37,025 bases of DNA, taken from a virus. A program made the translations under genes and the position numbers. Under the pieces are notes generated by a model, which worked only from the letters and a program-made list of their open reading frames with translations, made no database searches and was not told the origin of the DNA. Shown here piece by piece: positions 12,278-35,544 of this stretch. The stretch spans positions 1 to 37,025 of IMG/VR virus record IMGVR_UViG_3300042934_000636; one strand, written 5' to 3'. Within the stretch, counting starts at the first letter, position 1. Each line of letters opens with the position of its first letter.

Positions 12278-12670
12278 TCAGGACTCCTTCGGGAGGGGGC
12301 TGACGCGGGGGACCTTGAGCTGCCGCCAGGCGGTCTCGTCGGGGGTTCCGGAGGTGTCGCCGTCGCCCTTGGGGCGCAGGGTCTTCTGGTAGGCCTGCCA
12401 GGCAGCACGGTGGGCGGTCGTCCAGTCCGGGCCCAATGTCTTGCCCTGGGGGGCGTGGCCTTCGGCGGTGAGGCGGGCGCCTGCTGCCGTGTTGATGGGG
12501 CTGTAGCGGCCGCCGTGGAAGAACTCGGGCCCGGGGTAGGGCTCGTACCTGCTGGCGTCGTCCGGGGCCTCGACGGGGGCGGGTACCGGTGCCGCGGCCG
12601 GGGTTGCGTCGGGGACGTCGGCGGTCTTCTTACGGGCAGCCGTCTCATCCTGCTGCTTCGGATCGGGCAT
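12278..12670 (-). CDS. Peptidoglycan-binding-like protein of the lysis cassette
   Basis: 130 residues from the ATG at 12670 (CAGGAG about 9 bases upstream). The first 38 residues are a Lys/Ala/Pro-rich linker. Residues about 44-125 read YPGPEFFHGGRYSPINTAAG, then ARLTAEGH, GPDWTTAHRAAWQAYQKTL, and TPDETAWRQLKVP. This resembles the module found at the ends of Streptomyces wall-lytic proteins with the pattern SPI..aG.RL.aeG, GP.WT, aWQ..L, G..sW..LkVP, thought to bind peptidoglycan. There is no catalytic domain and no signal peptide. It ends three bases before the amidase, so the two together look like a split endolysin. The family similarity is from memory of the pattern; binding is inferred. 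Confidence 0.65.
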   Translation of the reverse strand: MPDPKQQDETAARKKTADVPDATPAAAPVPAPVEAPDDASRYEPYPGPEFFHGGRYSPINTAAGARLTAEGHAPQGKTLGPDWTTAHRAAWQAYQKTLRPKGDGDTSGTPDETAWRQLKVPRVSPLPKES

Positions 12671-12788
12671 TGCCCGTACTCCTGAACTCCCCGCGCCCAG
12701 GTGAACTTGGTGGCGGGCCGCTGTGGTGCGGCCGTCCCTCAGTTGGGTGGGGCAAGGGCGGAGGGTCGCCCTCTATGATCAGAGTAGA

Positions 12789-12819
12789 GGCGGCCAAGGC
12801 AGTCGTTCCCCTGGCCGCC
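12789..12819 (-). terminator. Hairpin between tail and lysis genes
   Basis: GGCGGCCA (12789-12796) and TGGCCGCC (12812-12819) form an 8-bp stem about 10 bases behind the Pro/Cys-rich gene. On the minus strand the stem is followed by the pyrimidine-rich TCTACTCT. It probably ends the tail-gene transcript. Confidence 0.6.
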
Positions 12820-13193: not shown

Positions 13194-15703
13194 GATCCAA
13201 TCACCATCCAGTTCACGACGGTTGCTGTGGTGTTCTCGCGGTTGACCCAGACGAGCATCCCGGTGGACGTCACGGAGGACACGGCGACGCCGGTGACGCC
13301 CTGGGCGCCGACGGGGGTACGGACGCCGGGCACGGTGGTGGCGGCGGTGGCGTAGCCACGGAACGTGGTCCCCTTCAGCGCGGTGAAGGAGACGGATGCG
13401 CTGGTGGGGGTGTGCGCGGCGGACGGGGTGATGGTGGTCGTGCCGGTGATGATGTTCCCGGCGGTCATCATCCCGGCGATGTTGGTGTTGCCGTCCTTGT
13501 CGACGGTGAACTTGTCAGCGTCGCGGAACAGTCGCAGGAGGGGCCCGGTGTGTGCGGTGTTCGCTGCCACGTAGAGGGTGCTGAAGGCGCTGGCGGGAGG
13601 CAGGTCCACGGCCAGGCGCCCGTTCCTGAGAGTGGCCAGGTTCGCCTCAACGTCGATCCGGGTGTTCTGCGTGGTGTCGTCGTCGTTGATGAACCCCACG
13701 TAGCCCCGGGTGGGGAGAAGGATCATCTGCCCGCCGATTTTCCGCGCTGGACTGGTGTCCGTGGTGTACCGCTCAATGCCTGCTACGTCCCGGCCAAGGG
13801 TCGTGTGCCAGAACACGTCGGTGTAGCCGCTGGCGGGGAACCTGCCGCTGACCATCTCAAGGGTGGCGTCGCCTGTGACCGGCTCCGATACGGCGATCTT
13901 GGCGCGGTTCGAGTCGGCCGCGTTGCTCAGGGTGAACATCGGGTAGGTGGCGTTGGGGTTGAGCCAGAGGATGGCGCCGCTGGTGCCTTTGACGAGGAGG
14001 CCGCGGGCGGACAGTTCATTGACCGCTACGTTGTCCGCGTTGTATCCGATGAACTTGTTGGCGTCGCCCTCGTTCAGGGCCATGCGCTCGCCAGTGGTGT
14101 CGGTCTGGATGACGGCGCCGGTGATGATGGATCCGTTGATCTCCCCGCCGGTGATGGTCTTACCGGTGATGGCGTCGGCAGCGAGCGCGGTCGTGGTGAC
14201 GGCCCCGGCAGCGAGCTTCCCGACAGTGATGGCATTAGCTGCGATCTTGTCGCTGGTCACGGCGAGCGCGTCCAGTTTCGCGGTCGTCACCGCACCCGAT
14301 GCGATCTTGTCAGCGTTCACCGCGCCCGCATCGATCTGCAACGCCTGCACCGCCGCCGCAACCAGCTTCTGCGTCGTGATCGCACCATCCGCGATCTGCG
14401 TACCACCCGCAACCGGCCGCACCGCCGCATTGTCGAACCACAGCCGACCCGCTGAGCCAGCCGTTGACGCGACCATCAGCTTGAACCGGGCCGCATTGGC
14501 AGGTGCCGTCACCGTGGCACTGATGCGCTGCCACGTGGCGCCGAGCGTGGGAGGGCTAGCTTGTGCGGCACCCGTCGACAGGAATCCTCCAGTCGAGTTC
14601 TCCCAGCGGGCAAAAATCCGCGGGGTCCCCACGTAGTCCGTGGACGCCTGGTAGTCGACCGCCAGATACAACTGATCGCCAGGCAGGGCGGCCATGCTGA
14701 ACAGGGCCAGATCCCGGTTTGTCGAAGACGCGGCTGCCGCGTTCACCTGCAACGACTTGGCGGAACCGTTGCCCTTGCTTGCGTCTACGGACCAGAACGC
14801 GTCCCCTGCGACAAGGGCTTCCGTGTAGGCGCCTTCGAAGCTGGGGTCGGACAGCAGGTTCCCTCCCCCAGACACGGTCAGCTTGTCCGTGGTGATGGCC
14901 CCGGCTGCGACCTTCGCCGACGTGACCGCCCCCGCCTGAATGTTCCCCGCCACCACCGAGTCCGCAGAGAGCTTCCCCGCGGTCACCGCCTCCGACGCGA
15001 TAGCCGGGCCCGTCACCGCATTGTCCGCGATCTTCCCGACCTCCACCGCAGCGTCCGCCAAGTTCTCGGCGAGGACCGCGGAGTCCTGGAGAGCGACGCT
15101 ACCGACGGCGTCGGCTGCGATCTTCGCTTCGGTGACGGCGCCCTCAGCGAGCTTCACCGTGGTGACGATGCCGTCCACGATGTCCGTCGCCACCACCGGA
15201 GCAGGCCCCAGCGGACCCGCCTGCAAGGTGGGCTCCGACGGGGTACCGGACGTGCTCCGGGCGATCAGCCGCACATACACGGGCTCCTCGCACGGGACGA
15301 CGACAGTGCCGCCCTGCGGGGTTTCGAACGTGCTCTTCAGCGTCTCCAGTGACGCTTCGAACCCGTCCAGGGTGGAGGCGTGGACTTCGACGCGCTGCCA
15401 GTCCAACGGCGCCACCACCCCGTCCACGAAGCCGCCGTTCCACGACACGGTGACCCCACCCAGCACCGACCCAAGAATCGGCGCCGACGGTGACGGGGGC
15501 GGGGGCCCGTTCACGATGTTCACCGCGGTCGTGCCGTCGCTCTGCACACCGACAATCGCACGGAGACTCCCAGCACCGTCCTTCACCTCGAGGGCACTGT
15601 CCTCGATGCTGCCGCCGTGCGCGTACCGCTGACCCCGCTTGATCTCCTTCAGCTCCTGCCGGAGCCGGGCAACTTCAGTAGTCAGATCGCGTGCCATCGT
15701 CAT
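13190..15703 (-). CDS. Tail fibre / receptor-binding minor tail protein
   Basis: 837 residues; the ATG overlaps the upstream stop (ATGA). The first 25 residues are a coiled coil (LTTEVARLRQELKEIKRGQR). About 75-175 is a fibronectin-like beta domain (APILGSVLGGVTVSWNGGF). About 175-285 and again 430-530 hold tandem 8-12-residue repeats of the form DGAVTxxKLAxGAI, as in trimeric phage fibres. Between them, about 290-430, lies a jelly-roll domain starting NLLSDPSFEG and ending WFDNAAVRPV, the typical frame of carbohydrate-binding modules. The last 250 residues are beta-rich and probably the receptor-facing tip. No protease or sugar-hydrolase motif is seen. It probably binds the Streptomyces wall; the domain calls come from recognisable patterns and the binding target is inferred. 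Confidence 0.8.
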   Translation of the reverse strand: MTMARDLTTEVARLRQELKEIKRGQRYAHGGSIEDSALEVKDGAGSLRAIVGVQSDGTTAVNIVNGPPPPSPSAPILGSVLGGVTVSWNGGFVDGVVAPLDWQRVEVHASTLDGFEASLETLKSTFETPQGGTVVVPCEEPVYVRLIARSTSGTPSEPTLQAGPLGPAPVVATDIVDGIVTTVKLAEGAVTEAKIAADAVGSVALQDSAVLAENLADAAVEVGKIADNAVTGPAIASEAVTAGKLSADSVVAGNIQAGAVTSAKVAAGAITTDKLTVSGGGNLLSDPSFEGAYTEALVAGDAFWSVDASKGNGSAKSLQVNAAAASSTNRDLALFSMAALPGDQLYLAVDYQASTDYVGTPRIFARWENSTGGFLSTGAAQASPPTLGATWQRISATVTAPANAARFKLMVASTAGSAGRLWFDNAAVRPVAGGTQIADGAITTQKLVAAAVQALQIDAGAVNADKIASGAVTTAKLDALAVTSDKIAANAITVGKLAAGAVTTTALAADAITGKTITGGEINGSIITGAVIQTDTTGERMALNEGDANKFIGYNADNVAVNELSARGLLVKGTSGAILWLNPNATYPMFTLSNAADSNRAKIAVSEPVTGDATLEMVSGRFPASGYTDVFWHTTLGRDVAGIERYTTDTSPARKIGGQMILLPTRGYVGFINDDDTTQNTRIDVEANLATLRNGRLAVDLPPASAFSTLYVAANTAHTGPLLRLFRDADKFTVDKDGNTNIAGMMTAGNIITGTTTITPSAAHTPTSASVSFTALKGTTFRGYATAATTVPGVRTPVGAQGVTGVAVSSVTSTGMLVWVNRENTTATVVNWMVIGS

Positions 15704-16791
15704 GCCTCCGCGGGGCCGTAGTGGAAGGAATCAGCGCGCTGCAACGTCAGCACCGCCTGATCCGGGGATTCGGTGGGCCGGTAGGAGTCGGCCAGGACAC
15801 GGCACCAGCCCGACCATGACGTCCACTGGTTGTTGACCGTGACCTGCACGTCGTCACCGATCTGCCACGACCCCAGCGGCGCGTTCGGATGATGCCGGAC
15901 CGTCACCGACTCGACCTGGCCCATGACCCGCCGGCGTTTCAACTCCGCGGCCGCCCGCTTCCCAAGGACGTCGTTGCCGTTGACCGTGGGCAAAGCCAGG
16001 ACCGTCTCCATGCGCAGCCCACCGTCCCTCGAGGGGGCTTCCGCCCGGCGGGTGGCAGTGCCCTCACCCGAGCCGGTCGCAATGACCACGTTGGCAAAGT
16101 CGTCGCCGCTGTAGGTGACGGGGACGGCGTCGATGATGTTCACGCCGGTCCGGAAGGCGATGTCCGTACGGCGGGCCCCCAGCCGCGGGTAGCCGAGCTT
16201 GAGGCGCTTCTCCACGCCGCCGCCGAGGTAGCGGCAGGTGTTCGTGTACTGGGGTGCGCCCTCCTCTGAGACGAGGTCGTCCAGGTGGTCGCCCAGGTTG
16301 GGGTTCTCGTACCAGTACGAGTGCCACGGCTCCTTGGGTGTCCCCACCGTGATCTTCGAGGCGGTGGAGTCGACGACCACGCCCAGGTTGCCGTCAGGCT
16401 GGGACTGCGCATACGCCCACACGTCCCGGATGATTTTGCACGGATCGGTGTTCACGTACGGGCCGCGGCCGGCGAGTTCGCCGTGGGTGTCGTGGCGTTT
16501 CGTCAGGTACGACGACCAGGACGCGGCCTCGATCTGGAATTCGCCGTCCTTGACGGTGATGTCCCAGATCAGGCCGCCCCACCGCAGGTAGCCGTCGGCT
16601 TCGGCGTAGATGACGGCCTTGCCGGGGATCAGCGAGGCGACGTTGGCTTTCACGAACCGCGGCGTGAGCGTGCCGGTGAGCTGGCCGGGCCCGTTGAGTT
16701 CGTTGCCGAACTCGGCCTGCGCCAGGGGCAGGTCGGGGTGGAGTTGAGAGCCGGTGAGGGCGTGCTGGGTCCAGAACCGCCAGCGGCCCAC
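15700..16791 (-). CDS. Minor tail (tail hub/baseplate) protein, ReqiPepy6 Gp37-like
   Basis: 363 residues from GTG 16791, overlapping the upstream stop by one base. The N-terminus, LPLAQAEFGNELNGPGQLTG followed by WGGLIWDITVKDGEFQIEAA, is characteristic of the siphovirus Gp37/gp27-like tail hub family in actinophages. The C-terminal LGSWQIGDDVQVTVN and YRPTESPDQAVLTLQRAD match its usual end. These proteins close the tail tip and form the ring from which the fibre hangs. Its place between the distal tail/minor tail genes and the fibre gene agrees. Confidence 0.78.
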   Translation of the reverse strand: MGRWRFWTQHALTGSQLHPDLPLAQAEFGNELNGPGQLTGTLTPRFVKANVASLIPGKAVIYAEADGYLRWGGLIWDITVKDGEFQIEAASWSSYLTKRHDTHGELAGRGPYVNTDPCKIIRDVWAYAQSQPDGNLGVVVDSTASKITVGTPKEPWHSYWYENPNLGDHLDDLVSEEGAPQYTNTCRYLGGGVEKRLKLGYPRLGARRTDIAFRTGVNIIDAVPVTYSGDDFANVVIATGSGEGTATRRAEAPSRDGGLRMETVLALPTVNGNDVLGKRAAAELKRRRVMGQVESVTVRHHPNAPLGSWQIGDDVQVTVNNQWTSWSGWCRVLADSYRPTESPDQAVLTLQRADSFHYGPAEA

Positions 16792-30517: not shown

Positions 30518-31279
30518 TCAGGCGTCGGCGGGGATCTTTCCGCGGCGCTTGAGCATGGCGAGGCCTCGCTCGCCGGGCTTGGGCTGGGCTCCGCCCGGCC
30601 GGGGCATGCCGGGGGCGGGCATGCCGGACGGCGCCGGCGGCGGTGTCTGTGCGGCCGGGGCGGTGGTGCCGAACAGTTCGGGCCTGCGGGCCTTCAGCTT
30701 GGCGGCGGCTTCGGCGACGGTCTGCTCGTCGGCGTCGGGGGTGGCGGCGAGGTCCCGGTCGAGCATGGCCAGGGCGTCCTGAAGGTTCGGGATGGTGTTG
30801 CCCTGATCGTCGGTGGCGTCGATGGCTCCGAGGCGGGACAGGGCCTGCTCGCGGCGCAGGGTGCGGCGTTCCGCGGCAATGGTCTGCCGCTCGGCTGCGA
30901 TGGACTGCTGGTCCGCTTCAAGCTTCTTCTGGACGCGTTCCTGCTCGGACAGGGCGTCTTCCTGGGCCTTGCGGGCGGCCGCGATGAACGCCTTGGCGTC
31001 GTCCACGTTGCTGAAGCCGTGTTCGGCGGCGAACTCCTCGAGGGCCTGGCGGGCCCCGGCGCGCTGGCCCTGGGCCTTCTCCTTCGCGGCGATACGGTCC
31101 AGGTCTTCCTGCGTGAACGCGGGCGGGTTCGCGGGCGGGGCGGGCTTGGGCGGGGCGGGAACGGGAGCCGCCGGGTCTCCGTCGGCGTAGAACACCGGGG
31201 AGAACAGACCGGACGGGTAGGGGTGGGCCCATCCGGTGTGGCCGGTCGGGTTGGGGTGGTGCTGCGCGGGGCGACGCAT
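30518..31279 (-). CDS. Capsid scaffolding protein
   Basis: 253 residues from ATG 31279 (GGGAGGA about 9 bases upstream). The middle is a long charged helix (about 55-150) with repeated EERVQKKLEAD, QSIAAERQTIAAERRTLRRE-type heptads; the ends are Pro-rich, low-complexity regions and the C-terminus KPGERGLAMLKRRGKIPADA is basic, as needed for binding the capsid protein. Coiled-coil core, flexible ends and position between portal and decoration/capsid are the normal marks of siphovirus scaffolds. No protease Ser motif is seen, so it is a pure scaffold. Confidence 0.82.
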   Translation of the reverse strand: MRRPAQHHPNPTGHTGWAHPYPSGLFSPVFYADGDPAAPVPAPPKPAPPANPPAFTQEDLDRIAAKEKAQGQRAGARQALEEFAAEHGFSNVDDAKAFIAAARKAQEDALSEQERVQKKLEADQQSIAAERQTIAAERRTLRREQALSRLGAIDATDDQGNTIPNLQDALAMLDRDLAATPDADEQTVAEAAAKLKARRPELFGTTAPAAQTPPPAPSGMPAPGMPRPGGAQPKPGERGLAMLKRRGKIPADA

Positions 31280-31313
31280 CAGTACAAGTCCTCCCAGACT
31301 CGTTGTCGTTCCA

Positions 31314-31325
31314 GGCCCCGCGCCT
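31314..31325 (-). repeat. 12-bp motif AGGCGCGGGGCC, copy 3
   Basis: The same 12 bases also occur at 33285-33296 and 35484-35495. This copy begins 35 bases before the start of the scaffold gene and is followed on the minus strand by TGGAAC. Confidence 0.7.
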
Positions 31326-31350
31326 AGATCCAAGTGGAGCACAGAATCTG

Positions 31351-33252
31351 TCACGCGTTCCCCCCGCTCCCCTGCGGCCCCTCTTCGCCGTCCCCTCCGC
31401 CGGTCAGATCGGTCTCGTTTCCGGCGGGCGGGAACTGCGGCGGCGGGGCGTCGGCCGGGTCGGGTTCGGTGACGGTTACCCCAAGGAAGTCCCCAACGAG
31501 GCCGGTGTCGCCGGTGGCGTCGGCCAGGGCGCGGGCCTTCTCGAACTGGCGGGCCTGGATCCGTTCGATCTCTTCGCTGACGTCGTCGATGGGGAACCCG
31601 ACATCGACGAGCATCCGCACTGCGGTCTCCAGGGACATGACGCCGCCTTCGACGGCTTCCCGGACCATGGTGAGGGTGGCTGCCTTGTCGGTGGGCTTGT
31701 ACGTGCCCCACGCCAGGCGGGCATCGACGACGGGACCGGTCCAGTCGGGGTGCTGCCCGGCGAGGTACAGGCGCTGCACCATCTTGAACAGGAGCTGGTA
31801 CTTGTGGTCGCGGGCGAGGTGCATGGAGTCCATGAGGGGGTCCATGGGACCGTAGGACAGGTCGATGGCGAACCCGGACGGTGCTTTGGTGGGGTCGAGA
31901 GTTCCGAGGGCGACGGCGGGCATGCGGGCGTTCAGCGACAGCCGGTCCTGAAGTTCGGCGGTCTTGTCCCGCAGCTCGGCAAGGTTCTTGCTGGTGTCGA
32001 CAGTCTTGATGTCGCCGCCCGCCGCAAGTTCGATGACCATGCCGGGGCGGACCTGCCGGTTGACGGGTTCGCTGCGGCGTGAGGAGACTTTGTCGCCGCC
32101 GTTGACGATGCCGATGATCGGGGCGCCGGTCGTCGCGGAGGCGAGAGCACTGTCCCGGTCGGTGCCGGCGAGTTCGTCGAAAAGCTGCATGAGAAGCGCC
32201 AGGGACGACTCTCCCCAGTGTCCGTCCTCGGGGATCGTGTTGGGCAGGTGAACGACCGGAATGTAGTCCTGCCACAGGTCGAGGTGGTCGAGGACTTCCC
32301 CGTCGGGCCGGGTGAGGTAGGTGGCGTACCGCTCGTCGAGGGTGTGGACGTCCTGGTCGGCTTTGATGTCGTCCAGGTCCCATTCGGCGTCGGTGAGGTA
32401 GCAGGTCAGGTGGGTGGGGTCGTCGTTCCACGGGTACTGGCGCAGGATCTGCCCGCTGGCGGGGTCCCAGGTGTCGCCAGAGGTCATGAGGGGGGTGGAC
32501 CCGTCGTCGGCGAGGGCGGCGGCACGGGCGGGTCGTTCGCCGTCGGTGACGGAGACGGTGCGGGTGCCGATGGGGGCGAGTTCGTAGGTGATGCGGCGCA
32601 GACGCCGTTTCTGTCCTGGCACGCGGGGGTCGGGCTCGACTTCCCAGGCGAAGTGGACGCGGGTGGGGTAGTCGGCGGAGTCGCCGGCGTTGTCGGGCAG
32701 GTCGGGGAAGTAGAAGCCGGGGTCGACGACGGACAGCCGGGGGCGCATCTTCTCTGCGTCCCAGGCCAGGGTGTATATGCCGTCGCCCTCGCGGACGGCT
32801 TTGCGTTCGTTCTGTTGCAGGCGGAGGCTGAACAGTTCCTTCTTCGCCCAGTCCCGGAGCTTGTCCTGTACGTCGGCGGCGTGCACGGCCTCAGGGTCGG
32901 GGCTGCTGCCGTCGGTGGGTTCGGCGTTGTCGGCGTCGTCTACGACGATGGTCTGTTCCCGGCCCAGGAGGTGGCTGGTGAGGGACGCGACGAGCATCGC
33001 GGGGTCGCCGAACTCGCGGCGCATCCGTGCTTCTGCACCGTGTTGCAGGGCGTCGATCTCCCAGGCCTGGTTGTGGCCGTAGGCGGCGAAGATGGTGTAG
33101 GAGGCGAGGCGGCGACGGTCCTCTTCGGGTACCCAGGTGCGCATGGCGCCGGGGAACGCACTGCGGTCGGGCGTCTTGTACACGGGGTCGGCGAAGGACC
33201 GCTTGTAGTTCAGCGGTCCCCACCGGTCCACGATGAGACGGAACAGGCCCAC
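31351..33252 (-). CDS. Portal protein
   Basis: 633 residues from GTG 33252 (GGGAGC about 6 bases upstream). The ring-forming DNA channel of the head. The order matches the SPP1-like portals of actinophages: RMRREFGDPAMLVASLTSHL near the N-terminus, KLRDWAKKELFSLRLQQNER, the wing region with DGIYTLAWDAEKMRPRLSVV, the stem and crown (VEPVTG-like region VNRQVRPGMVIELAAGGDIK), PMDPLMDSMHLARDHKYQLL, and ending in a Pro/Gly-rich tail. The preceding and following genes are terminase and scaffold, as usual. It is separated from the terminase by a long hairpin containing the repeated 12-bp motif. Confidence 0.88.
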   Translation of the reverse strand: MGLFRLIVDRWGPLNYKRSFADPVYKTPDRSAFPGAMRTWVPEEDRRRLASYTIFAAYGHNQAWEIDALQHGAEARMRREFGDPAMLVASLTSHLLGREQTIVVDDADNAEPTDGSSPDPEAVHAADVQDKLRDWAKKELFSLRLQQNERKAVREGDGIYTLAWDAEKMRPRLSVVDPGFYFPDLPDNAGDSADYPTRVHFAWEVEPDPRVPGQKRRLRRITYELAPIGTRTVSVTDGERPARAAALADDGSTPLMTSGDTWDPASGQILRQYPWNDDPTHLTCYLTDAEWDLDDIKADQDVHTLDERYATYLTRPDGEVLDHLDLWQDYIPVVHLPNTIPEDGHWGESSLALLMQLFDELAGTDRDSALASATTGAPIIGIVNGGDKVSSRRSEPVNRQVRPGMVIELAAGGDIKTVDTSKNLAELRDKTAELQDRLSLNARMPAVALGTLDPTKAPSGFAIDLSYGPMDPLMDSMHLARDHKYQLLFKMVQRLYLAGQHPDWTGPVVDARLAWGTYKPTDKAATLTMVREAVEGGVMSLETAVRMLVDVGFPIDDVSEEIERIQARQFEKARALADATGDTGLVGDFLGVTVTEPDPADAPPPQFPPAGNETDLTGGGDGEEGPQGSGGNA

Positions 33253-33284
33253 AAGTCGCTCCCTGGGATGGGACGTACATTTCA

Positions 33285-33319
33285 GGCCCCGCGCCTTTGA
33301 TCAGGATAGGCGCGGGGCT
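33285..33319 (-). repeat. 12-bp motif AGGCGCGGGGCC, copy 2, within a hairpin
   Basis: GGCCCCGCGCCT (33285-33296) pairs with AGGCGCGGGGCT (33308-33319): 11 Watson-Crick pairs plus one GU, loop of 11 bases. This is the only copy with an inverted partner. It lies between terL and portal, 33 bases before the portal start. Confidence 0.75.
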
Positions 33320-33343
33320 CCCAGGGCATCCCCTGGCTGCGGG

Positions 33344-34906
33344 TCAGCGGCCGCGGGGGTCGGGCCGGTCGTAGTCGCCGTACAGGGTTTCGCCGCCGTC
33401 GATGTCGGCGAGTTCCGTGATGGCGTGGACGGCGGCGTCCATACGGTCCGGGGAGTCGAGTCCGGGCATCCACGTCACCATCTGCGACTCCAGTTTCGGG
33501 AACGTTCCCACGTGGTGGACTCGATCCTGCTGGTACAGCTGGGCGATCGGCTCTGCTCGAAGCCGCTTGCCGCGTTTGGCGGTTACGGAAACGATCCGCG
33601 GCATGAGCTGACCACGAGTGAGGCGCCTTCGGGCTAGCTCGTGCCATGCCTGGGTGATGACCTGCCGGGTCATGTCACCGCCGAAATTCGCCTCACACAC
33701 GATCGCGTCGGCCTGCCATTCGATGGCGAGCTGGCAGGCGACGGTTCCCCACTCGTCAGCCCCGAGGGAGGCCGACTTGTCGTCCAGAACGTAGTACTCG
33801 TCCCGGTACTCAGATCGGTCGTGCCTGTCGGTGATGGCCTCGGATTCGGCAACGGCGGCAGCGACGATGCCGACCTCATCATTCACGGAGGTGTTGCCGC
33901 CGGCTGGGTCTACGGCGACAACGATGCGGTCCAGGTCGATACCGCGGAGTGCGGCGGTCGACAGCCGGTTGCCGTCGATCCAGGACTGTTGCCAGACTCC
34001 GCCGGACTGCGGCCTGGGCTGCTGCTGGTACAGGGCCCACCAGACGCGTTCGCCAACGGATTTACGGATGCGGGCGTAGTCGTCGGCGTTGTACCGCTCT
34101 GGCCAGAGGGCTTCGCCGGGCTGCCGGCCGAGGGGGTCGTCGGCGGTCAGGGCGAGGGCGGGAAGATCGATGACGATCCAGTCTTCGGGTTCTTCCTTGA
34201 GGAGCCTGCCGGACAGATCGTCCTCATCCCAGCGAGTGTTCACAAGGAGCACGGAGCCTTGGGGTTCGAGGCGGGTAAGGAGGACGGACTGCCACCAGTC
34301 CCAGACCCGGTCTCGCTGGGTCGGGGAGCCGGCGTCCTCTGATCCTTTGAATGGATCATCCACGCAGGCTACGTGCGCGCCGCGGCCGGTAAGGGGCCCT
34401 CCGACGCCGGCGGTGACCATGCCGCCTTCGTGGCCGTCAATGTCGAATCGGTTCGCGGCCTGGGATCCGTACTTGAGGTTGATGCCGAGGGTCGGGGCGT
34501 GTTCGGTGATCGTGTTGCGGATCCAGCGGCCGTGGTCGTCGGCGAGGTGGGCGGCGTAGGAGGCGAGCATGAACCGGTGGTCGGGCTGCCGGCGGAGGTA
34601 CCAGGTGGGGCCCCAGCGTGAGGTGCGGCGGGACTTCCCGGCGCGTGGGGGCATGGTGACCATGGCGCGGATGCGTTCGCCGGCGGCGATGCGCTGGTAG
34701 ATCCGGTCGATGATGTCGAGGTGCCGGGCTTGCATCTCTTTGCCGTGGGTGAGGACTGCGGCGAGGGCACCCGGGGAGCGGTCCATGGCCATGTCGGCTT
34801 CTACCGCGGCGAGCTGCGCGCGCAGGTCTCCGGATGCCTGTTGGATGATGGCGCGCCGCTCGGGGGCCGGGAGGGACCGGTAGCGGGTGAGGACGTCGTC
34901 AGCCAC
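33344..34906 (-). CDS. terL: Terminase large subunit
   Basis: 520 residues; overlaps the small-subunit gene by 8 bases. N-terminal ATPase: Walker A MPPRAGKS at 85-92 (the P-loop Lys is Lys91), Walker B HVACVDDP at about 178-185 with the DD acid pair, and coupling motif LLVNTRWDEDDLSG. C-terminal RNase-H-like nuclease: first acid in VVAVDPAGGNTSVNDEVGIV, second in CEANFGGD, third in PDRMDAAVHAI. It cuts concatemers and pumps DNA through the portal. Motifs and spacing are complete, so it should be active. Confidence 0.93.
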   Translation of the reverse strand: MADDVLTRYRSLPAPERRAIIQQASGDLRAQLAAVEADMAMDRSPGALAAVLTHGKEMQARHLDIIDRIYQRIAAGERIRAMVTMPPRAGKSRRTSRWGPTWYLRRQPDHRFMLASYAAHLADDHGRWIRNTITEHAPTLGINLKYGSQAANRFDIDGHEGGMVTAGVGGPLTGRGAHVACVDDPFKGSEDAGSPTQRDRVWDWWQSVLLTRLEPQGSVLLVNTRWDEDDLSGRLLKEEPEDWIVIDLPALALTADDPLGRQPGEALWPERYNADDYARIRKSVGERVWWALYQQQPRPQSGGVWQQSWIDGNRLSTAALRGIDLDRIVVAVDPAGGNTSVNDEVGIVAAAVAESEAITDRHDRSEYRDEYYVLDDKSASLGADEWGTVACQLAIEWQADAIVCEANFGGDMTRQVITQAWHELARRRLTRGQLMPRIVSVTAKRGKRLRAEPIAQLYQQDRVHHVGTFPKLESQMVTWMPGLDSPDRMDAAVHAITELADIDGGETLYGDYDRPDPRGR

Positions 34907-35444
34907 TGCTGTTGCTGTCCTGCTCCCCCGAGGAGTCTCCGGAGGGTTCCTCGGTGTCCAGGGCAGGGCCCGGTCCGGCGTTCATGATGGCTTCCAGTTC
35001 GGCGCTGCTGGTCTGGCTCATCTGGAGCGGCCCGCCGTTGGCGCCGGTGATCTCTGCCTTGACGGGCATGTCGAGGCCGTTGAGTTTCGCGCGGCGGTCC
35101 ATCAACCGGAGGACGGTGTCGACGGCCCGCATGTCGATCTCTTCGCCAACGATGTCGCCTTCCTTGTTACGGATGGCCTTGGGGGTGGTGGCTGCGGGCC
35201 AGGCGGCTTCGAGGAGGGCGTCGAGGCGCTCGTTCTCCAGCTGCCGGTAGACGCTGACCTCGGCCCTCTCCTCGTCGCGGTGGGCTTCGAGGGCGCGTTT
35301 GAGGTCGCTGCGGGCGGTGGCGGGGCTGTTGTAGCCGAGGGAGAGGATGCGTTCGTCGTCGTAGCGGACGCCTTCGCGGCGGAGTTTGAGGAGGGCGGTG
35401 CGGCGTACGGCGACTTCGTCTTGCTTGAGTTTGGACCAGGGCAT
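34899..35444 (-). CDS. terS: Terminase small subunit
   Basis: 181 residues, ATG 35444. The N-terminal 55 residues carry a helix-turn-helix-like stretch (LKLRREGVRYDDERILSLGY, NSPATARSDLKRALE), which should recognise the pac or cos site; then a coiled coil EERAEVSVYRQLENERLDAL for oligomerisation and an acidic, flexible end (EEPSGDSSGEQDSNSSG) that usually contacts the large subunit. Its place before terL is normal. The packaging site could lie within or next to this gene. Confidence 0.85.
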   Translation of the reverse strand: MPWSKLKQDEVAVRRTALLKLRREGVRYDDERILSLGYNSPATARSDLKRALEAHRDEERAEVSVYRQLENERLDALLEAAWPAATTPKAIRNKEGDIVGEEIDMRAVDTVLRLMDRRAKLNGLDMPVKAEITGANGGPLQMSQTSSAELEAIMNAGPGPALDTEEPSGDSSGEQDSNSSG

Positions 35445-35483
35445 GGCGGTGGGGCTCCCGCTTGGGTGAGTGTGTGGTTGTTT

Positions 35484-35495
35484 GGCCCCGCGCCT
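35484..35495 (-). repeat. 12-bp motif AGGCGCGGGGCC, copy 1
   Basis: This is the first copy in transcription order, beginning 40 bases before the terS start. It is followed on the minus strand by AAACAACC. No inverted partner is close by. Confidence 0.65.
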
Positions 35496-35544
35496 GGTCA
35501 GATGATCGCCGATTTTCGTGGGTGTGTTCCCTTTGGACGTGGGG

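Follow-up and report, generated by a model that had tools for sequence, protein, structure and literature searches.

What is a 12-bp word doing in front of three packaging and head genes of a phage? The stretch of DNA analysed here, IMG/VR virus record IMGVR_UViG_3300042934_000636 (37,025 bases; hereafter the window), contains three exact copies of AGGCGCGGGGCC (hereafter the core), all on the minus strand, and no fourth exact copy was found in the window. Each copy lies in the gap before a gene, namely terS (ATG at 35444), portal (GTG at 33252) and scaffold (ATG at 31279), at 40, 33 and 35 nucleotides (nt) from the respective start codon. The positions, the placement in these gaps and the distances all agree with a preliminary description of the repeat. 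In the portal gap, one inverted copy with one mismatch forms a hairpin with the core. PHROGs comparisons gave clear identities for terL, portal and scaffold and also supported the decoration and major head proteins; terS was identified by synteny only, its sole PHROGs match being to a family labelled Rnase E. Judged on number of copies, the repeat does not exceed chance in the window, where six 12-mers reach three copies compared to an order-3 Markov expectation of 8.2 ± 3.2. Since this count is unremarkable, the case rests on comparison with relatives, and the features that are not due to chance are the placement of the core and its conservation there.

The window is 69% identical in nucleotide sequence to the Streptomyces phage-plasmid ZL12 over the late region, has the same gene order and is a member of the ZL12-type Streptomyces phage-plasmids (ZL12, pSAM1, pCQ3, pCQ4 and pSLE1). 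A search with terL yielded 80 related loci, many of which lie on elements 85-93 kb long, and the scaffold leader matched 24 Streptomyces plasmids, including pSAM1, pCQ3 and a pSLE1-sized plasmid of S. leeuwenhoekii. Among loci with a placeable start and a site found, the 11-mer GGCGCGGGGCC was exact before terS in 59/60, before portal in 70/71 and before scaffold in 43/43. The portal proteins of the loci bearing the core are mostly only ~50% identical to that of the window. The sole departure at portal, in L080, is one G short; L065, a second contig from this isolate, carries the word intact. No core was present at four distant terS loci (L053-L055 and L077; terS 38-39% identical), and the long outlier contigs L053-L055 carry the portal copy only. 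In eight IMG/VR relatives of 86-92.6 kb and in ZL12 (90,435 bp), GGCGCGGGGCC was found exactly three times per record, on the coding strand, at the terS, portal and scaffold gaps. Other genomes have the same three sites plus a few scattered or antisense-coding matches; extra antisense copies ~285-295 bp into terS in some relatives are, judging from their position, probably coding matches (TGG CCC CGC GCC, W-P-R-A). The word is thus neither scattered over the coding regions of complete genomes nor missing from the same gaps in relatives, the two outcomes that the preliminary description had named as telling against an element, and the element survives.

When the relatives were aligned on the core, a GGGG(G/C)AAC block was found to start 39-41 nt upstream of it, with at most one mismatch in 160/171 sites compared to 0.9% of random positions. 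The distance from this box to the core was 39.9, 39.8 and 39.95 nt at terS, portal and scaffold, with standard deviations of 0.66, 0.48 and 0.22 nt, whereas the distance from the core to the start codon had standard deviations of 3.9, 6.2 and 2.6 nt and ranged from 9 to 40 nt. At scaffold, the box had at most one mismatch in 43/43 relatives and lay exactly 40 nt from the core in 41/43 (portal and window boxes are given in Table 1). The near-constant distance to the start codon noted in the preliminary description therefore holds in the window but not across relatives. Because the spacing to the box is rigid and that to the start codon is free, the core belongs to the upstream boxes and not to the start codon.

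This spacing also bears on the suggestion that the core is a start-associated sequence (SAS) acting in translation initiation, as in the Cluster K mycobacteriophages. The core resembles the Cluster K SAS and its extended form (ESAS) in being short, asymmetric and repeated, in standing in a single orientation ahead of phage genes and in having a hairpin extension in one class. The Cluster K SAS is a 13-bp sequence, GGGATAGGAGCCC, which sits on the ribosome-binding site at 3-7 bp from the start codon; its 11-19 copies lie among the non-structural genes (PMC3203893). In contrast, the core has a different sequence, lies 9-40 nt from the start codon with a separate Shine-Dalgarno (SD) sequence, and occurs three times per genome before terS, portal and scaffold. 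The likeness drawn in the preliminary description thus fails in sequence, position, copy number and gene set, and a role of the Cluster K type is very improbable.

Downstream of the box, a -10-like hexamer follows after an 18-nt spacer in all four promoters of the window, the fourth of which precedes the lysis region and is described below. T6 of the hexamer is conserved to at least 89% in all three core-bearing classes, A2 is conserved in portal and terS only, and scaffold has an extended TG. The A that usually precedes GGCGCGGGGCC comes six to eight nt after the hexamer. Features of promoters for bacterial RNA polymerase (RNAP), namely T6 and A2 of the -10 and a -35 element, are therefore seen at fixed spacing. 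Some portal leaders have as little as ~20 nt, SD included, between core and start codon; the transcript must therefore start no further downstream than the core, which is itself too GC-rich to contain a -10. Taken with the spacing of the box and the -10, these short leaders would place the core at +1 to +12 of the transcript.

A blind IMG/VR scan for box, gap and core found at least 121 sites in newly fetched loci, 109 of them immediately upstream of homologues of terS, portal or scaffold; among the remaining twelve, four are scaffold leaders truncated at the end of a contig. In bacteria (one genome per species), matches fell at scattered places in unrelated coding sequences, the exception being ~25 in Streptomyces contigs that resemble prophages. 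Use of the element by the host was rejected, as the bacterial matches outside prophage-like contigs look random, and a looser pattern of TGATC plus core was set aside as it gave mostly unrelated coding matches. These comparisons show the element to be specific to the ZL12-type phage group. The conservation, exclusive placement and rigid spacing leave a chance repeat of a GC-rich genome, or one arm of an intrinsic terminator, as the least probable of the explanations considered, even with a window count that is not above chance and a portal copy that forms a hairpin. There is no T-run, and the arm (an inverted match of at least 8 nt) was present in 12 of ~60 distinct portal sites, 0 terS sites and 0 scaffold sites. 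The hairpin reported in the preliminary description is thus present in the window but is a minority feature at portal. Since the inverted copy lies upstream of the predicted +1, it would not be transcribed with the portal leader. A GATC methylation switch was also rejected: GATC is frequent near the core, yet missing in several relatives.

Collectively, these results suggest that the 12-mer probably covers about +1 to +12 of the transcripts from a phage-specific late promoter that occurs three times, driving terS-terL, portal, and scaffold together with the head and tail genes after it. The promoter module would comprise GGGG(G/C)AAC, 18 nt, a -10 hexamer ending in T (TACCCT, GATCAT or TGC-TNNNCT), ~7 nt, an A and GGCGCGGGGCC. 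The core would be read at initiation or very early elongation by one trans-acting factor, a phage-induced regulator acting on DNA or on the nascent 5' end, and one factor on the core would switch on the three packaging and head operons together. Across the aligned loci, conservation is exact, each operon has one site, box spacing is rigid and start-codon spacing is free; from this pattern we infer a start at the A, late timing and a single phage factor on the core. The presence of the same promoter, with a different leader, before the lysis region counts in favour of this reading. The preliminary description had offered a late activator site, an RNA element controlling translation or a processing site, and is partly supported, the late activator coming closest in view of the rigid spacing to promoter-like boxes.

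Several observations weigh against a late promoter of this kind. In the window, the terS box has two and the portal box three mismatches to the consensus. The -35-like box differs from the TTGACA consensus, and there is no textbook HrdB -35. A stretch of twelve invariant nt after +1 is uncommon in a sigma-dependent promoter. Finally, sigma region 2 (PF04542) gave no match in 12 records, with the control matched in 10/14 genomes, so no complete phage sigma factor explains the box. A single-subunit RNA polymerase (PF00940) gave no match in a search in which the control genomes gave none either. Two families of regulator-like proteins were present in every complete genome compared by protein search. 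pZL12.110c matched GerE (E 7e-12) and a PHROG labelled 'sigma factor' (E 2e-13), and one homologue scored above the Pfam sigma region-4 cut-off. pZL12.24c is WhiB-like in 8/8 members (best E 4.8e-8), with a C-terminal part that is GerE-like by eye. That either is a late regulator reading the core is a guess. pZL12.7c, annotated as sigma-H-like, was set aside since it gave no Pfam or PHROGs sigma match.

The predicted late promoter has partial counterparts in other phages. T7 class III promoters are conserved to +6 and are read by a single-subunit phage RNA polymerase. As in the T7 late promoters, one sequence is repeated before late operons and conservation continues past +1; unlike in T7, the boxes resemble those of bacterial RNAP and conservation reaches twice as far beyond +1. 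In lambda Q/qut and HK022 put, a short element near +1, in late transcripts for Q and in leader transcripts for put, works together with a single trans factor or with RNAP. The core is likewise a short element near +1, but here three separate operons each carry a site, and the put RNAs are two-stem structures and much longer.

A position at +1 would also suit a repressor operator, as operators often overlap +1. The core would then be an imperfect 11-bp palindrome over +1 through which a phage repressor shuts off the three late operons while the phage persists as a plasmid prophage. Four of the five symmetric pairs of GGCGCGGGGCC match (4/5) and the relatives live as plasmids. However, immunity operators normally diverge between phages, and this word is identical despite ~50% identical proteins; moreover, only late operons carry the core, and no early promoter or repressor gene does. 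We therefore regard an operator as unlikely.

With a profile built from the upstream boxes only, this promoter is also detected ahead of the lysis region in almost all complete genomes. The leader of this fourth promoter is without the core and contains, in order, GGGCGACCCTCCGCC, GAGGGAC, a variable hairpin and GGGCGCGGGGA beside the SD. In 26 aligned sequences the three blocks are invariant and the variable hairpin covaries, with 18 double-change cells compared to 9.7 in shuffles and at most 7 when slid; the invariant helices gave no evidence of covariation. No Rfam match above the gathering score was found in the window, and nothing credible was found at a lax threshold for the leader regions. 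This leader is possibly a new regulatory RNA family. It was observed in more than 25 sequences, including L433, L435, L440, L455 and L471. With this promoter, the late region would be covered by four promoters, serving terS-terL, portal, scaffold onward and the lysis side.

Does the core act as DNA or as RNA? One possibility, which we consider distinctly less probable than a role at the promoter, is that the core is an RNA tag: every packaging and head mRNA would start with 5'-AGGCGCGGGGCC, which would be read in trans on the nascent or mature transcript, and the structured lysis-side leader would be part of the same RNA switch. Such a tag might act in antitermination by RNAP modification, or in a shared control of translation or stability that coordinates the amounts of terminase, portal and scaffold. 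A further proposal, to which we give somewhat less credence still, keeps the late-promoter start and places the function after initiation. As the 5' terminus of the mRNA, the core would either form a protein-bound mini-hairpin (AGGC-GCGGG-GCCU) or pair with the initiation region and tune translation of terS and scaffold. The 13-mer AGGCGCGGGGCCT is indeed self-complementary, with a 4-bp stem and a 5-nt loop, but its closing pair is disrupted in many cases (T.T at 13 portal sites; A.G, A.C or A.A at 14 terS sites). The fourth leader, as a covarying structured RNA containing GGGCGCGGGGA, also speaks for a function in RNA.

The evidence for pairing with the initiation region differs between the three genes. 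At scaffold, codons 3-6 hold a 9-nt exact complement of the core under strong constraint at the nucleotide level: the third bases of codons 3, 4, 6 and 7 are 100% fixed, compared to a mean of 0.67 at conserved codons elsewhere in the gene, and the complement is present in 23/43 relatives compared to 1.6% of control windows. However, more than one third of the scaffold partners have an A.C mismatch, which is uncompensated. At terS, an invariant GCCCC-AC-CGCC stands beside the ATG, but terS is no more complementary to the core than GC-rich start regions usually are (~20th percentile). Portal leaders have no general partner for the core, and their spacer is unconserved. General cis pairing between core and initiation region was consequently rejected, as scaffold alone stands out. 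A phage antisense RNA was also rejected, as reverse-strand copies in the complete genomes are limited to the arms of the hairpin and a small number of matches that are scattered or coding. A role in DNA or early elongation is tentatively favoured over a role in RNA, since the portal site is kept even though no partner for it is conserved. Two further observations were made at the scaffold start. Across codons 1-7 (31259-31279 in the window, and relatives), synonymous positions are fixed far above the remainder of the gene, and the SD (31284-31301, and relatives) appears to lie in a small hairpin loop, the stem of which varies (AGTC..GACT, GTCC..GGAC).

Table 1. Promoter, leader and candidate regulator features. 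Coordinates refer to the window unless another record is named.
Feature	Position	Strand	Remarks
terS core AGGCGCGGGGCC	35484..35495	-	exact; predicted +1 is the A at 35495
portal core AGGCGCGGGGCC	33285..33296	-	exact; predicted +1 is the A at 33296
scaffold core AGGCGCGGGGCC	31314..31325	-	exact; predicted +1 is the A at 31325
terS -35-like box AAGGGAAC	35526..35533	-	consensus GGGG(G/C)AAC; 39-41 nt upstream of core in relatives
portal -35-like box AGGGGATG	33327..33334	-	degenerate; at most one mismatch, at 39-41 nt, in 63/70 relatives
scaffold -35-like box GGGGGAAC	31357..31364	-	exact
terS -10-like GATCAT	35502..35507	-	18 nt after box; A2 and T6 in 100% of 45 distinct sites
portal -10-like TATCCT	33303..33308	-	18 nt after box; TACCCT in relatives, T1, A2 and T6 95% each
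scaffold -10-like TCCACT after TGC (extended -10)	31333..31338	-	18 nt after box; T1 86%, T6 89%, preceding TG 95-97%
inverted core copy (DNA hairpin)	33308..33319	.	one mismatch; upstream of predicted portal +1
terS initiation region GCGGGAGCCCCACCGCC	35445..35461	-	near-invariant, abuts ATG; SD-like GGGAG; gapped core complement
scaffold codons 3-6 CGCCCCGCGCAG	31262..31273	-	holds 9-nt exact core complement GCCCCGCGC
fourth late promoter and leader	12670..12812	-	precedes gene starting at 12670 and endolysin
fourth promoter box	12812-12805	-	
fourth promoter -10 TACTCT	12786-12781	-	spacer again 18
pZL12.110c, 116 aa, GerE / sigma-region-4-like	ZL12 88773-89123 (L127 38773-39123)	minus	in all eight complete genomes compared
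pZL12.24c, ~320 aa, WhiB-like	ZL12 15462-16424 (L126)	minus	homologues in seven other complete genomes

Several loci depart from the common arrangement. In L170 (~1976, minus strand), a terS-type promoter, core and conserved GCGGGAGCCCC initiation region precede an open reading frame that is ParB/methyltransferase-like by eye, and not terS; this terS-type leader appears to have been recruited by another gene. L149, L164, L173, L203 and L299 carry box, gap and core with spacers resembling those of the late promoters, and the genes that follow were not recognised as terS, portal or scaffold; these sites may extend the element to other phage groups. The terL coding region of many relatives (L070, L072, L074, L076, L078 and others) is split by an additional 1-2 kb, which may represent inteins or homing elements, and spans ~2.5-3.6 kb compared to 1.5 kb. 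Many relatives (e.g. L009-L016, L025 and L050) also have an extra 0.6-0.9 kb between terL and the portal promoter, and the pCQ3 region (L552) has HNH-annotated genes upstream of portal.

The element is real and conserved, and apparently undescribed. The ZL12-type records examined have no annotated transcription element of this kind, and a search of the open literature, which did not extend to subscription papers such as the original pZL12 study, yielded no paper dealing with this word in phages or with late promoters of the ZL12 type. Little is known of how the structural genes of actinobacterial phages are switched on, especially in Streptomyces phage-plasmids. Here, the predicted starts of all three packaging and head operons carry one invariant word, shared by dozens of phage-plasmids, sequenced laboratory plasmids such as pSAM1, pCQ3 and pSLE1 among them. 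It gives base-level predictions of start sites for RNA-seq, and as pSAM1 of S. ambofaciens is reported to be strongly expressed in HT medium by RNA-seq (PMC11302927), these predictions can be tested. In pSAM1 (NZ_CP012383.1, minus strand), transcripts would start within 2-3 nt of 2,590 (terS), 89,446 (portal) and 87,497 (scaffold), on the assumption, with which the scaffold match agrees, that the IMG/VR record of this element has the coordinates of pSAM1; the fourth promoter of the window would start at about 12773. The promoter is a candidate inducible part for use in Streptomyces. The word also offers a handle for fishing out the late regulator and, since twelve invariant bases after +1 do not fit the usual picture of a sigma promoter, whatever reads it should be interesting.

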